Positions 11,015 through 17,365 of a stretch of 64,000 nucleotides of DNA are shown here, in pieces. The position numbers and the translations under genes were made by a program. The stretch covers positions 868,001 through 932,000 of the forward strand of contig JAOSJV010000001.1 in the NCBI GenBank assembly GCA_027493935.1. Direction: 5' to 3'. This DNA comes from Burkholderiales bacterium. GTDB taxonomy: Bacteria; Pseudomonadota; Gammaproteobacteria; Burkholderiales; SG8-39. A model generated the notes under the pieces. That model was not told the origin of the DNA and did not search any database. It saw nothing but the letters and a program-made list of their open reading frames with translations. Every line of letters begins with the position of its first letter. Position 1 is the first letter of the stretch.

Positions 11015-11983
11015 TTGACAGCAGCCTCGCGGCCTTCCGGGCCGCTGCGAACGGCCGTCGTCGGCGCCGGCTACCTCGGCCGCTTCCACGCGCAGAAGTA
11101 CGCCGGGCTGCCCGGCGTGCGCCTCGCCGCGGTGGTGGACGCCGACCCGGAGACGGCACGCAAGGTCGGCGCTGAGCTCGACGTGCCGGCGTTGACCGAC
11201 TTTCGCGAGATCCTCGATGAGGTGGATGCGGTCAGCCTTGCCGTGCCGACGCCGCAGCACTACGTCATCGGCGCCGAGCTCCTGCAGCGTGGCATCCACC
11301 TCCTCGTCGAGAAGCCGATCGCGGCCACCATCCCCGAGGCGCGCGCGCTCGTCGCCATCGCGCGTCGGCGCGGCTGCGTCCTGCAGGTCGGCCACCTCGA
11401 GCGGTTCAATCCGGCGGTGCTCGCGGCCGCGAGCTGCCTCGGCGCGGCGCGTTTCATCGAGGCGAGCCGGCTCGCGCCGTACCAGCGGCGCGGATCCGAC
11501 GTGAGCGTCGTGCTCGATCTGCTGATCCACGACATCGACCTGATCCAAGAGCTCGTCGCGCGGCCGGTCGAGAGCGTCGATGCGATCGGTGCGAGCGTGT
11601 TCTCCGGCGAGATCGACATCGTCAATGCACGCCTGCGTTTCGAAGGCGGCTGCGTGGCGAACACCACCGCGAGCCGGGTTAGCCTGAAGCAGGAACGCAA
11701 GCTGCGCATATTCCAGGACGATGCCTACCTCTCGATCGACCTGCACCAGAAGATCCTGACGGTCGTGCGAAAGAAGGACGATGCGCCGGTCGAGTCGCCT
11801 GCGCAGGTGGCGATCGAGGAGGAGTCGTTCGCCCAGGGCGATGCGCTGCTCGCGGAGATCGCGGCCTTCGTGGGTGCGATCCGCACGGGCACCGAGCCGA
11901 TCGTGACCGGCGAGCACGGCCTGCGCGCGCTCGAGACCGCGATGCGCATCACCGAGCTCGTGCAGCGCTCCACGGCGCGCTGA
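11015..11983 (+). CDS. Gfo/Idh/MocA family oxidoreductase, possibly UDP-GlcNAc 3-dehydrogenase
   Basis: A 322-residue NAD(P)-dependent sugar dehydrogenase. The N-terminal Rossmann fold has VGAGYLGRFHA and the conserved EKPIA motif follows around residue 100. The C-terminal half is the usual beta-sheet substrate domain. The start is taken as TTG at 11015, because GGAG lies 6 bases before it and the Rossmann motif follows after about 15 residues. It is separated from lpxA by only 3 bases. GnnA, a member of this family, oxidises UDP-GlcNAc at C3 on the way to 3-amino lipid A and is found next to lpxA in other bacteria. That makes GnnA the best specific guess, but the partner aminotransferase GnnB is not present here. 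Confidence 0.82.
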   Translation: MTAASRPSGPLRTAVVGAGYLGRFHAQKYAGLPGVRLAAVVDADPETARKVGAELDVPALTDFREILDEVDAVSLAVPTPQHYVIGAELLQRGIHLLVEKPIAATIPEARALVAIARRRGCVLQVGHLERFNPAVLAAASCLGAARFIEASRLAPYQRRGSDVSVVLDLLIHDIDLIQELVARPVESVDAIGASVFSGEIDIVNARLRFEGGCVANTTASRVSLKQERKLRIFQDDAYLSIDLHQKILTVVRKKDDAPVESPAQVAIEEESFAQGDALLAEIAAFVGAIRTGTEPIVTGEHGLRALETAMRITELVQRSTAR

Positions 11984-11986
11984 GCC

Positions 11987-12783
11987 GTGGAGCACGACGT
12001 ACCGGCGCGGGCGCTGATCGATCCCACGGCGTGCGTGGCGCCCGCCGCCCGGCTGGGCGGCGGCGTGCGGGTCGGGCCCTTCGCGGTGATCGAGGACGAC
12101 GTCGAGATCGGCGCGGATGCGAGATCGCCGCGCACGCGGTGATCAAGCGCCACACCCGGATGGGGCCGGACAACCGCATCGGCGAGCACGCGGTGATCGG
12201 CGGCGTGCCCCAGGATCTGGCCTTCCGCGGTCAGCGCAGCTACCTCGTGATCGGCGCCGGCAATGTGATCCGCGAGGGCGCGACGCTCAACCGGTCGAGC
12301 CGGGAAGACGAGGCCACCACGGTCGGCAACCGCTGCTACCTGATGGCCTACTCCCATCTCGGCCACGACTGCCGCGTCGGCGACCAGGTGATCGTCGCCA
12401 ACGGCGCGCTGCTCGCCGGCTTCGTCGAGGTGGGCGACCGGGCGTTCGTCTCCGGCAACGTCGCGATCCATCAGTTCGCGCGCGTCGGTCGCCTGGCGAT
12501 GGTGGGCGGGCTCGCGCGCGTGAGCCAGGACTGCCTGCCGCTCATGATCACCGAGGGTTCGCCGGCGCGGGCGCGCGCCGTGAACACTGTGGGCCTGCGC
12601 CGTGCGGGCTTCGCCGCCGGGGACATCCGCGCCGCGAAGTACGCACTTGGGATCCTCGCGAGGATGCCGCGGCTGGAGGACGCGCTCGCCGCGCTCGATG
12701 CCGATGCCTCGCCGCCCGCGCGGGAGATTGCGTACTTCATCCGCGGCTCCCGGCGCGGCTTCTCGCATCCCGTGCGCGGCTGA
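11987..12783 (+). CDS. lpxA: Acyl-ACP:UDP-N-acetylglucosamine O-acyltransferase LpxA, with a -1 frameshift
   Basis: LpxA catalyses the first step of lipid A synthesis in the cytoplasm. The protein is a left-handed beta-helix of hexapeptide repeats; the catalytic His lies in MAYSHLGHDC and the conserved HQF and MVGG motifs follow. The first 43 codons (GTG start at 11987) run VEHDVPARALIDPTACVAP to VEIGAD, then the frame must shift at about 12118-12121 to continue CEIAAHAVIKRH; one base is missing. Corrected length is about 265 residues, normal for LpxA. Since the gene is normally essential, either the indel is a sequencing error or a second intact copy exists elsewhere. It is preceded by the dehydrogenase gene in what looks like one operon. 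Confidence 0.88.
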
Positions 12784-12882: not shown

Positions 12883-13200
12883 ATGTCGCAGAACCGCGTG
12901 CTGCCGATGCTCGCGCGGGCGCTCGCGACGGCGGCGCTCGCCGGCGTCGCGGGTTGCAGCGCCGAGTCGAGCGGGAAGCCAGTGGCGCCGCCGCCGCGCG
13001 CGCATCTCGTCGAGCTCGCGGTGGTCGAGCCGGGGCGGCTCTCGTACGCGGCCGACCGCCCCGGCATCCTGCGCGCGCTGCGCGCTAGAATCGGGCGATG
13101 CCTCTTGCCCCGGCGTGCGCGCTCGGAGGAGAGGCGCCGAACGACAAGCTCCGCGGCGCAGGCCGCAGGGAAGAGGGAGAGCGGAGGTAGGCGGCCGTGA
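12883..13200 (+). pseudogene. Truncated RND efflux adaptor (membrane fusion lipoprotein) fragment
   Basis: The first 67 codons give a lipoprotein signal sequence with lipobox (LAGVAGC) followed by AHLVELAVVEPGRLSYAADR, which is characteristic of the N-terminus of periplasmic adaptor subunits of RND efflux pumps. Homology stops at about 13084. The frame then runs through Arg-rich, non-protein-like sequence to a stop at 13200, and no hairpin, lipoyl or barrel domain and no RND pump gene follow. The break coincides with what looks like the promoter (TAGAAT, 13086-13091) of the following GGDEF gene. It is best read as a deletion remnant; an assembly join is the alternative. Confidence 0.6.
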
Positions 13201-14637
13201 ACGGCGAGGGCATCGCGACCGGCCTGACCGTCGACCTGCTGGTCTACGGCGGGCTCATCGCGTTCGCAGCCTACCAGCTTCTGTTCTGGTTCGGCGAGCG
13301 CGAGCGCAGGTCGCTGCACCTCGCGGCCGCGGCGTTGTTCTTCGCGCTGGCGCACGCATTCTCCGGCGAGCTCGCCGCGCTCGTGCTGCCCGCGCGGCTG
13401 CGGCAGTGGCATGCTGAGCTTGCCGTGGCGCTGCCGCTGCTGGCGGCCGCCGCGCTGATGTCGTTCGCGCGGGTGCATCTGGCGATCGCGCACCTCGAGT
13501 CCGACCTGGCCGGCGCGATGCACGGCGTCGTACTGGCCGGCCTCGCCGCCGCCGCGTCGGCGCCCGCGTGGGCCGGCGCGGCGGTCGCACCCTGGGTGGC
13601 GTCGGCCATCGTGGCGGCGGCGCTCGGCCTGCTCGCGGTGATGGCGGCGCGCCTGTGGCGCAGCATCTACCGTGCGCCGCGCTACTGGTGGCCGATGCTC
13701 GCGGCGCTCATCGGGCTGCTCGCGATGCTCGCCGCGCGGCCGCACCGGGTGCTGTCCGCCGATGCCCGACTCGAGTACGCGCACGAGCTCGGCACGGTCG
13801 CGCTGCTGCTCGCGCTCGGCTATGCGGTGGCCGCGCGCGCACGCGTGGAGCGGCGCGCCGGCCGCGACGCTGCGCTGCGATCGTACATCGGCGAGGCGCT
13901 CGCCGCGGAGGCTGTGGCGCGCGCCGAGCAGGACGCCAAGGCGGCCCCTCGCCCGGCGCGTCGAGGAGCTCGCCGCGCTCGCGGTGGCGGGTGTCGGCGC
14001 GCAAGGCGCCGGCGCGATCGATCCGCACTGGGACCGCGAGTTCCTGTCCGCCGAGCGGCTGCGCGCGCTCGCAGCACGCAACGCGCTGCTCGAGCGGGAG
14101 GTGCGCTTCAGGCGCGACGTTGAGGGGCGCATGCGCGCGATGGCCTACCAGGACGCCCTGACCGGACTGCCGAACCGGGCGCTGCTCGCCGACCGGTTCG
14201 CGGTGACTTCGGCCCAGGCACGTCGGCACGGGCACATGCTCGCGGTGCTGATGCTGGACCTGGACGACTTCAAGCGCGTGAACGACACGCTCGGCCACGA
14301 CGCCGGCGACCGGCTGCTCGCCCACGCAGCTGAGGTCATCCGCCACGGCGTGCGCGAGTCGGACACGGTGGCGCGATTCGGCGGCGACGAGTTCGTCGTG
14401 CTGCTCGGTGAGCTGCATCACTTCGCCGAGGCGGGCATGGTCGCCCAGAAGCTGGTCGCGCGCCTCTGCGAACCGGTGACGATCGCCGGCCATGCGACCG
14501 AGCCGGGCGCGAGCATCGGCATCGCCATGTGGCCGGAGCACGGCATCGAACTCGGCGAGCTCCTGCGCCTGGCCGACCAGGGACTCTACGCCGCCAAGGC
14601 GAGTGGAAAGCGCACCTACCGCTACTACGGCGAGTGA
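13197..14637 (+). CDS. Membrane-anchored diguanylate cyclase, with a +1 frameshift
   Basis: The N-terminal 220 residues form about six hydrophobic helices of an unassigned membrane sensor region. A helical linker and a C-terminal GGDEF domain (RFGGDEF intact, RxxD I-site present as RESD just before it) follow. It should convert two GTP to c-di-GMP at the inner membrane. The sensor and catalytic halves are in different frames; the linker reads through correctly (QDAKAALARRVEELAALAVA) if one C is removed from the C4 run at 13945-13948. Corrected length is about 479 residues. GTG at 13197 has a GGAGG sequence nine bases upstream. No EAL domain is present. Confidence 0.87.
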
Positions 14638-15395: not shown

Positions 15396-17365
15396 ATGAT
15401 CCCCGAGATCGGCCACTTCGCCCTCATCCTCGCGCTGCTGCTCGCGCTCGCGCAAGGCACGCTACCGCTGGTGGGCGCCACGCGCGGCGACAGCGCGTGG
15501 ATGGCCCTCGCGCGTCCGGCGGCGCAGGGCCAGTTTCTGTTCGTCGCGCTCGCCTTCGGTTGCCACGCGTACTCGTTCATCGCGAACGATTTCTCGGTCC
15601 TGAACGTCGCCAGCCACTCGAACGCGCAGCTCCCGGGGCACTACAGGTTCGCGGCGAGCTGGGGCTCGCACGAGGGCTCGCTCCTCCTGTGGGTGCTGAT
15701 GCTCGCGGGCTGGTCGACCGCGGTGTCGCTCGCGAGCCGCCACCTGCCGCAGGAGATGGTCGCGCGCGTGCTCGGCGTGATGGGGCTCGTCGCGGTCGGG
15801 TTCCTGCTCTTCATGCTGCTCACCTCGAACCCGTTCGAGCGGCTCTTTCCGGCGCCGGCCGACGGCCGCGATCTGAATCCGCTCCTGCAGGACCCGGGAA
15901 TGGTGTTCCACCCGCCGCTCCTCTACATGGGATACGTCGGCTTCTCGGTCGCGTTCGCGTTCGCGATCGCGGCGCTACTCGGCGGGCGGCTGGACGCGAC
16001 CTGGGCGCGCTGGTCGCGGCCGTGGACGACCGCGGCCTGGTGCTTCCTCACGCTCGGCATCATGCTCGGGAGCTGGTGGGCCTACTACGAGCTCGGCTGG
16101 GGCGGCTGGTGGTTCTGGGACCCGGTCGAGAACGCGTCGTTCATGCCGTGGCTGGTCGGCACCGCGCTGATCCACTCGCTCGCGGTCACCGAGAAGCGCG
16201 GCGCGTTCAAGAGCTGGACCGTGCTGCTCGCAATCGCGGCGTTCTCGCTCTCGCTGCTCGGCACCTTCCTCGTGCGCTCGGGCGTGCTCACCTCCGTGCA
16301 CGCGTTCGCCACCGATCCGAAGCGCGGCGTATTCATCCTCGCGTTCCTCGCGATCGTGATCGGCTTCTCGCTCGCGCTCTTCGCCGTGCGCGCGCCCAGG
16401 GTCGGGCTCGGCGGGCGCTTCGAGCTCGTCTCGCGCGAGTCGACCCTGCTCGCGAACAACGTACTGCTGCTGGTCGCCGCCGGCTCGGTGCTGCTCGGCA
16501 CGCTCTATCCGCTCTTCCTCGACGCGCTCAACCTCGGCAAGATCTCGGTCGGCCCGCCGTACTTCGAGACGGTCTTCGCGCCGGTCATGGCCGCGGTCAT
16601 GTTCCTGATGGGCGTCGGCCCGCTCGCGCGCTGGAAGGAGGCGAGCCTGCCGGAGCTCGCGGTGCGCCTGCGCTGGGCCGCCGCGGTCGCGCTCGTCACC
16701 GCGCTCGTCGTACCGCTCCTCGCCGGCGACTGGACGCCGCTCAAGAGCTTCGGCTACCTCCTCGCGTTCTGGGTGTTCGCCGCCTCCGCGGTGTCGGTGT
16801 GGGAGCGCGTCGGCAAGGGCGCCGGCGGACCGTGGGCGAAGCTGCGCCAGCAGCCGCGCGCCTACTGGGGATGCTGCTCGCGCACGTCGGTATCGGCGTG
16901 TTCGTCGTCGGCGTCACCACGGTCAAGGGCTACGAGGTCGAGCGCGACGTACGCATGGACGTCGGCGACACGGTCGCGGTCGGCGGCTACACGTTCAAGT
17001 TCCAGGGCACGCGCGAGGTGGCAGGCCCGAACTACCGCGCCTCGCGCGGCGCGGTCGAGGTGAGCAAGGGCGGCCGCCCGGTGCGCACCCTGCATCCCGA
17101 GAAGCGCATCTACACCGTCCAGCAGATGCCGATGACCGAGGCGGCGATCTCGAGCGGTCTTCTCGGCGACATCTACGTGTCGCTCGGCGAGCCGGTCGCC
17201 GGCGGCGCCTGGAGCGTGCGCGTGTACTACAAGCCGTTCGTCACCTGGATCTGGGGCGGTTGCGTGCTGATGGCGTTCGGCGGACTCCTTGCGCTGCTCG
17301 ACCGCCGCTACCGGACGCTCGCGCGGCGCGACGAGCGTGCCCTCGCCGCGGCGCGCGCAGCCTGA
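15396..17365 (+). CDS. ccmF: Cytochrome c heme lyase subunit CcmF, with a -1 frameshift
   Basis: A large polytopic inner-membrane protein that ligates heme to apocytochrome c with CcmH. The tryptophan-rich heme-handling motif GGWWFWDPVENASFMPW is intact and conserved His residues of the family are visible. The first 490 residues and the last 165 are in different frames; one G is missing from the run at 16867-16870 (expected AYWGMLLAHVGIGVFV). Corrected length is about 656 residues, normal for CcmF. Start ATG at 15396. It lies 60 bases after ccmE and 16 before ccmG. The indel is probably a sequencing error, because the downstream ccm genes are intact. Confidence 0.93.

Follow-up and report, generated by a model that had tools for sequence, protein, structure and literature searches.

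The systems closest to the locus described here make lipid A with 2,3-diamino-2,3-dideoxyglucose (GlcN3N) by the GnnA-GnnB-LpxA route, as in Acidithiobacillus ferrooxidans and Leptospira. Capnocytophaga canimorsus is reported to have two lpxA genes together with gnnA and gnnB and a hybrid GlcN3N-GlcN backbone, the two LpxA copies of the genome being predicted to serve two precursors (PMC3342949). In M. loti, gnnA and gnnB lie far from each other and from lpxA (PMC5644692). Within the portions of open-licence papers covered, no report was found of a GnnA paired with an LpxA without GnnB.

It is this pairing that differs here, the GnnA-GnnB-LpxA route itself being already known. Like that of A. 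ferrooxidans and Leptospira, the present locus places a GnnA-type dehydrogenase beside an LpxA of the Leptospira clade. Unlike it, there is no GnnB adjacent or elsewhere, the dehydrogenase (Gfo) belongs to a lone subfamily, and a complete ordinary lpx operon is present as well. Two LpxA copies per genome are shared with C. canimorsus, which has both gnnA and gnnB, whereas the genome studied here is without gnnB (PMC3342949).

The locus and its counterpart in a congener

The window, by which we mean the whole 64,000-nucleotide stretch of DNA analysed, is C1:868001-932000 of a 17-contig, 5.19 Mb genome (G000) listed as 86.6% complete. The original prediction placed a Gfo/Idh/MocA dehydrogenase directly before lpxA, and this arrangement was borne out: the upstream protein matches PF01408 (E 3.1e-29), the downstream one reaches 236.2 bits on TIGR01852, and the two genes are 3 nt apart. 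The features are as follows.

11015..11983, + strand: GnnA-like Gfo/Idh/MocA dehydrogenase of the lone-GnnA subfamily, 322 aa (PF01408; 7bvj match; clade 100/99)
11987..12121, + strand: 5' part of lpxA2, first frame (TIGR01852 positions 1-35; alignment with the intact copy of the congener G003)
12112..12783, + strand: 3' part of lpxA2, shifted frame, acyltransferase of the LpxA2 clade (TIGR01852 positions 33-253; trees; dN 0.064/dS 0.256)

The gfo gene opens with TTG at 11015, where G003 has ATG, and stops at 11981-11983; lpxA2 begins on the same strand with GTG at 11987. The lpxA start at 12031 given previously lies in the wrong frame, as the N-terminus is read from 11987 in another one. The TIGR01852 pieces in two frames indicate a frame shift of 1 nt in the region of about 12112 to 12121, and alignment with the G003 copy displays the break as a 1-nt gap. 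The score of the larger piece is above the curated cut-off of 231.05 bits, and the G003 protein (265 aa, frame intact) gets 286.5 bits. Two further genes within 5 kb are also frame-split. One is ccmF (window 15396-17365; CcmF_C positions 1-179 in one frame and 162-323 in the other), where the split is probably an assembly indel, and the other is one apparent gene at 13197-14637 whose 7TM-DISM and GGDEF domains lie in different frames. With these as neighbours, the lpxA2 shift may be an assembly error, which is a fair but unproven explanation. Downstream of lpxA2, a short lipoprotein-like frame (12884-13110) aligns with the start of a longer G003 frame, which extends to the contig end, and then diverges. 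Neither piece has a Pfam match, and the window's frame may be a truncated gene.

In G003, listed as 100% complete with 5% contamination, the same pair lies in frame beside the same phaC, its two proteins being 88% and 89% identical to those of the window, and the 3-nt junction is common to both species. Between G000 and G003, gfo has dN 0.064 and dS 0.314 (dN/dS about 0.2), and over 220 codons lpxA2 has the same dN with dS 0.256 (about 0.25). Because these values are low for both genes, we regard the pair as real and as more than a chance adjoining. In the congeners G001 and G002, a search at E <= 1e-20 found no Gfo of this kind, and each has a single LpxA. No DegT match adjoins the pair in G000 or G003, in agreement with the absence of GnnB from the locus noted at the outset.

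It had also been proposed that the genome be searched for another lpxA, and one was found in a complete lpxD-fabZ-lpxA-lpxB cluster at C1:2156-2159 kb. This locus carries the sole LpxB match of the genome, with LpxD and FabA-like domains by Pfam. The window LpxA is therefore a second copy (LpxA2), and lpxA1 in this cluster rules out its being the genome's sole one; LpxA2 of G003 is 42% identical to LpxA1 of G000.

The dehydrogenase and the LpxA2 clade

Only one solved structure is closely related to the window Gfo, namely 7bvj/7bvk (E 5.9e-58; the next best is at 4.2e-19). The entry is titled 'Oxidoreductase, NAD-binding', and we take it to be A. ferrooxidans GnnA. The top NCBIfam model is UDP-N-acetylglucosamine 3-dehydrogenase, at 193 bits, below the cut-off of 450; a Geobacter GnnA that adjoins GnnB gets 225 bits on the same model. 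Of the 44 positions invariant in 42 GnnB-linked GnnAs, a list built on these rows alone, 43 are retained in the window protein and one differs (M to L at 170), and three alignment columns distinguish the lone-Gfo clade by the cut-offs applied. As judged by sequence, it is a GnnA-type UDP-GlcNAc 3-dehydrogenase. With 43 of 44 positions kept and few clade-specific columns, its chemistry is most likely still oxidation at C3.

The 83-row Gfo tree (26 rows of an earlier tree dropped, being distant groups, outgroups and one duplicate, and 11 added; the earlier tree had excluded one of 80 loci, L168, with less than 220 aa) nests the window protein among the GnnAs as a lone subfamily. Its clade of 11 rows (100/99) consists of the window, G003, G712, G456 and the metagenome-assembled genome (MAG) loci L097-L102 and L153. 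The nearest relative outside the genus is that of G712, 74% identical. G712 and G456 represent another family of the same class, outside the window's order, which is most simply explained by horizontal transfer into the window's genus. At the other nine loci of the clade, neither an LpxA nor a DegT match was seen next to the gene, L153 being visible downstream only because its contig begins inside gfo. A DegT gene is directly downstream of Gfo in 30 of the 80 loci of the first set and in 23 of 29 further loci examined, among 46 other matches.

Some loci show other neighbours. Two lone Gfo genes (L097 2472-3395 and L098 5959-6879) are closely followed by a carbon-nitrogen hydrolase, assigned by PF00795 in L097 and by eye in L098. 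In 13 of the 80 loci (L134, L143, L151, L171 and others), about 0.8-1.3 kb separate lpxA from a GnnA-like gfo, lpxB comes next and there is no DegT gene. In L134, the one locus of this type tested, the intervening stretch holds LpxI by Pfam, and three genomes with such loci had no DegT protein scoring higher than 454 bits against the GnnB profile described below.

A second possible identity for the window Gfo was WlbA. The WlbA-WlbC/WbpE route to UDP-GlcNAc3NA, encoded in a separate cluster of the same genome, likewise has a Gfo and a DegT protein acting on C3 of a UDP-GlcNAc derivative. It differs in that the genome's own WlbA-like protein (3q2i, E 4.8e-185) shares only about 26% identity with the window Gfo across the matched region. 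WlbA-like rows also fall outside the GnnA clade (100/97, long branches), and this candidate was rejected.

The LpxA tree has 63 rows, six earlier ones having been dropped (four identical duplicates, the long-branched L176 and the Geobacter LpxA of G436, previously placed outside the LpxA2 clade). The 16-row clade (100/97) that holds the LpxA2 proteins of the window and G003 also takes in the LpxAs of G083, G065, G409, L144 and L160; the second LpxAs of the gnnA- and gnnB-bearing (gnnAB) genomes G562, G650, G771 and G772; the LpxA of gnnAB genome G518 and two Methylococcaceae LpxAs; and the second LpxAs of the lone-Gfo genomes G428 and G432. A 185-aa fragment of Leptospira LpxA, an enzyme which we take to be selective for UDP-GlcNAc3N, joins this clade (100/98), and the E. 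coli and B. thailandensis proteins go with LpxA1. Outside it are the LpxAs of Geobacter (L114), Limnohabitans (L111) and L105, although these lie in gnnA-gnnB operons, together with those of gnnAB genomes G563 and G700 and both LpxAs of gnnAB genome G786. The clade may be usable to predict amide-linked lipid A from genomes, as an incomplete marker, since it does not take in every LpxA of gnnA-gnnB operons. In G019 (L228 8003-9867), a member of the family, there is a second lpxA-lpxB pair, whose LpxA is outside the clade.

Most genomes in the tree were picked for holding GnnA, and the co-occurrence of LpxA2 and GnnA in it is thus partly built in. A less biased sample is the search of 399 genomes of the order, in which LpxA2 was found at E <= 1e-72 in four, including G000 (G003 is not in the set). 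Two of the other three adjoin gnnB: G083 has the operon lpxL-gnnA-gnnB-lpxA2-lpxL (LpxL by similarity to a Pfam-tested protein), and in G065 gnnB precedes lpxA2 at the end of a contig. The 9.8 kb examined in G409 showed neither gnnA nor gnnB. The order gnnA-gnnB-lpxA2 recurs in the Rhodocyclales MAGs L144 and L160. These operons and that of G083 resemble the window in having an LpxA2 that is 61-65% identical or of the same clade, GnnA upstream and a second LpxA in the genome. Unlike the window, they have gnnB between gnnA and lpxA2, and a gnnA that is not of the lone clade.

Among lone-Gfo genomes, LpxA2 was found in 4 of 11 and not in the remaining 7, of which G431 is without any LpxA; G712 and G456 each have a single LpxA, of LpxA1 type. 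The unlinked lpxA2 of G432 (L225 601-2954) is divergent from a class III aminotransferase gene (PF00202), with a second one 3.6 kb further.

Residues 76 and 144 of LpxA2 (E. coli numbers) are A or G and F in the window and G003, being A and F in the window. In P. aeruginosa LpxA, the 6-OH of GlcNAc is held by the equivalent residues, Lys72 and His140 (PMC7072397). Residue 76 is G in Leptospira and residue 144 is F in G083, which has GnnB. A residue signature of UDP-GlcNAc3N selectivity would be suggestive at most, as the changes at 76, 144, 200 and 205 also occur singly in other LpxAs. Those at 76 and 144 may hint at a changed sugar and decide nothing.

The search for an aminotransferase

In G000, PF01041 gives 11 matches, three of them clear (367-427 bits) and the next at 67. 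The first clear DegT protein (C1:198.4-199.5 kb) is of WbpE type (3nu7, E 5.1e-133; 8e75, E 4.6e-136). It lies in a wbp/wlb-like cluster near the WlbA-like gene, whose match 3q2i is presumably a WlbA, together with a UDP-sugar dehydrogenase and an acetyltransferase read by eye from open reading frames (ORFs). The second resembles ArnB in an arn-like operon and the third belongs to an O-antigen-like cluster, both contexts again read by eye from ORFs. Eight GnnBs that adjoin GnnA are 52-82% identical to one another and the three DegT proteins are 30-50% identical to them, so none of the three was accepted as GnnB; the row from L076, translated in the wrong frame and without a match, was left out of this comparison.

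A profile was built from ten GnnBs. Five full-length GnnBs, all of them rows of the profile, score 656-664 bits, and the sole positive from outside it, the G065 GnnB, gives 469 and 212 bits as two pieces on two contigs. Where no GnnB adjoins a GnnA, scores reach at most 454 bits (G433). The original prediction had allowed for a GnnB elsewhere in the genome. This did not hold, as the profile search found no orthologue in G000 (best DegT 427 bits; genome 86.6% complete) or in G003 (best DegT 402 bits, adjoining a sugar epimerase; genome listed as 100% complete). Nor was GnnB found in any of the nine lone-Gfo genomes searched (G000, G003 and G426-G432, the last seven without stated completeness), where nothing exceeds 427 bits and where G430 and G432 have no profile match at E <= 1e-60. 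WbpE-like or other DegT proteins are present in most of these genomes. ArnB is the only clear DegT protein common to G000 and G003, and any aminotransferase serving the pair would thus differ between the congeners or be of another class.

A proposed GnnB-less module and the readings beside it

The interpretation as 3-amino lipid A is partly supported. Its LpxA half appears to fit well, and the dehydrogenase fits by its conserved positions, not by the habit of its subfamily. The likeness to the GnnA-lpxA association that the original prediction saw holds for the 7bvj match and the Leptospira-type LpxA clade, and fails for GnnB, of which there is no orthologue, and for the placement of Gfo in a lone subfamily. 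A second complete lpx locus and the lack of any aminotransferase partner had together been named as counting against the idea. The locus is there, while DegT aminotransferases exist (three clear, none a GnnB). Neither the second operon nor a distant partner refutes a 3-amino sugar, given the precedents of C. canimorsus, with two lpxA genes, gnnA, gnnB and a hybrid backbone, and of M. loti.

We put at about even the chance that the pair represents a variant GnnA-LpxA module without GnnB, dependent on an unlinked aminotransferase. The dehydrogenase, going by its family and conserved positions, would oxidise the 3-OH of UDP-GlcNAc with NAD+ to UDP-3-keto-GlcNAc. An aminotransferase encoded elsewhere and not orthologous to GnnB would then make UDP-GlcNAc3N, the best candidate being the WbpE-type enzyme in G000 and the DegT protein of contig C5 in G003. 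LpxA2, to judge from its clade, would put a 3-hydroxyacyl chain on the 3-amine as an amide, and the lpxD-fabZ-lpxA1-lpxB operon would still make the ester-linked product, giving mixed or hybrid lipid A. Horizontal transfer probably brought the gfo-lpxA2 operon together, joining a lone-type dehydrogenase, with its nearest relatives outside the order, to an lpxA2 whose relatives within the order sit in gnnA-gnnB-lpxA2 operons. In favour of such a module are the 3-nt spacing, the conservation in two species and the low dN/dS of both genes, along with the GnnA-like match and positions of Gfo and the position of LpxA2 in the clade of Leptospira LpxA, as far as sequence comparison goes. Against it stand the lack of GnnB in lone-Gfo genomes, congeners that share only ArnB, the presence of LpxA2 in just 4 of 11 of those genomes, the LpxAs of some gnnA-gnnB genomes outside the clade and the broken frame of the window's lpxA2.

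The lack of GnnB from all nine lone-Gfo genomes, including the LpxA2-bearing G428 and G432 outside the window's genus, could also mean that a lone-type GnnA needs no aminotransferase, its 3-keto product being reduced to the C3 epimer or self-aminated with ammonia before LpxA2 acylates it. The lack of profile matches at E <= 1e-60 in G430 and G432 points the same way, as does the A/F pair of the window LpxA2 at positions whose P. aeruginosa equivalents hold the 6-OH (PMC7072397). We nevertheless find this account unlikely: of the positions invariant in GnnB-linked GnnAs only one has changed, conservatively; Leptospira itself has G at 76, and G083, with its GnnB, F at 144; the LpxA2 clade is otherwise largely found in genomes with GnnB; and most lone-Gfo genomes tested have WbpE-like or other DegT proteins. 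That the subfamily is a UDP-GlcNAc 3-dehydrogenase working without GnnB or any DegT protein, by self-amination or through the C3 epimer, and that LpxA2 builds its precursor on a sugar new to lipid A, we hold to be very unlikely.

The frameshift in lpxA2, the absence of gnnB and the congeners G001 and G002, with no such Gfo and a single LpxA, would also suit a relic, in which gnnB was lost and the pair is decaying and now makes no product. The dN/dS ratios between G000 and G003 speak against decay, both genes are intact in G003, and the split ccmF and GGDEF genes allow the shift to be an assembly error, which leaves a relic quite unlikely. It also seems rather improbable that the dehydrogenase serves another pathway and merely landed beside lpxA2. 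The G712 gene and other members of the lone clade do occur in unrelated contexts, and the single LpxAs of G712 and G456 are of LpxA1 type. However, both species share the 3-nt junction, and the neighbour belongs to the LpxA2 clade, members of which also adjoin a GnnA in G083, L144 and L160 and occur unlinked in G428 and G432, two further lone-Gfo genomes.

The lack of GnnB in nine of nine lone-Gfo genomes tested raises the question of how the reaction of a UDP-GlcNAc 3-dehydrogenase is completed without its aminotransferase, and the same may be asked of the lpxA-lpxI-gfo-lpxB operons without a DegT gene (13 of 80 loci, LpxI by Pfam in one). If the GnnB-less pair does make 3-N-acyl lipid A, the genus would have a second, optional lipid A route, put together from genes of different origin.
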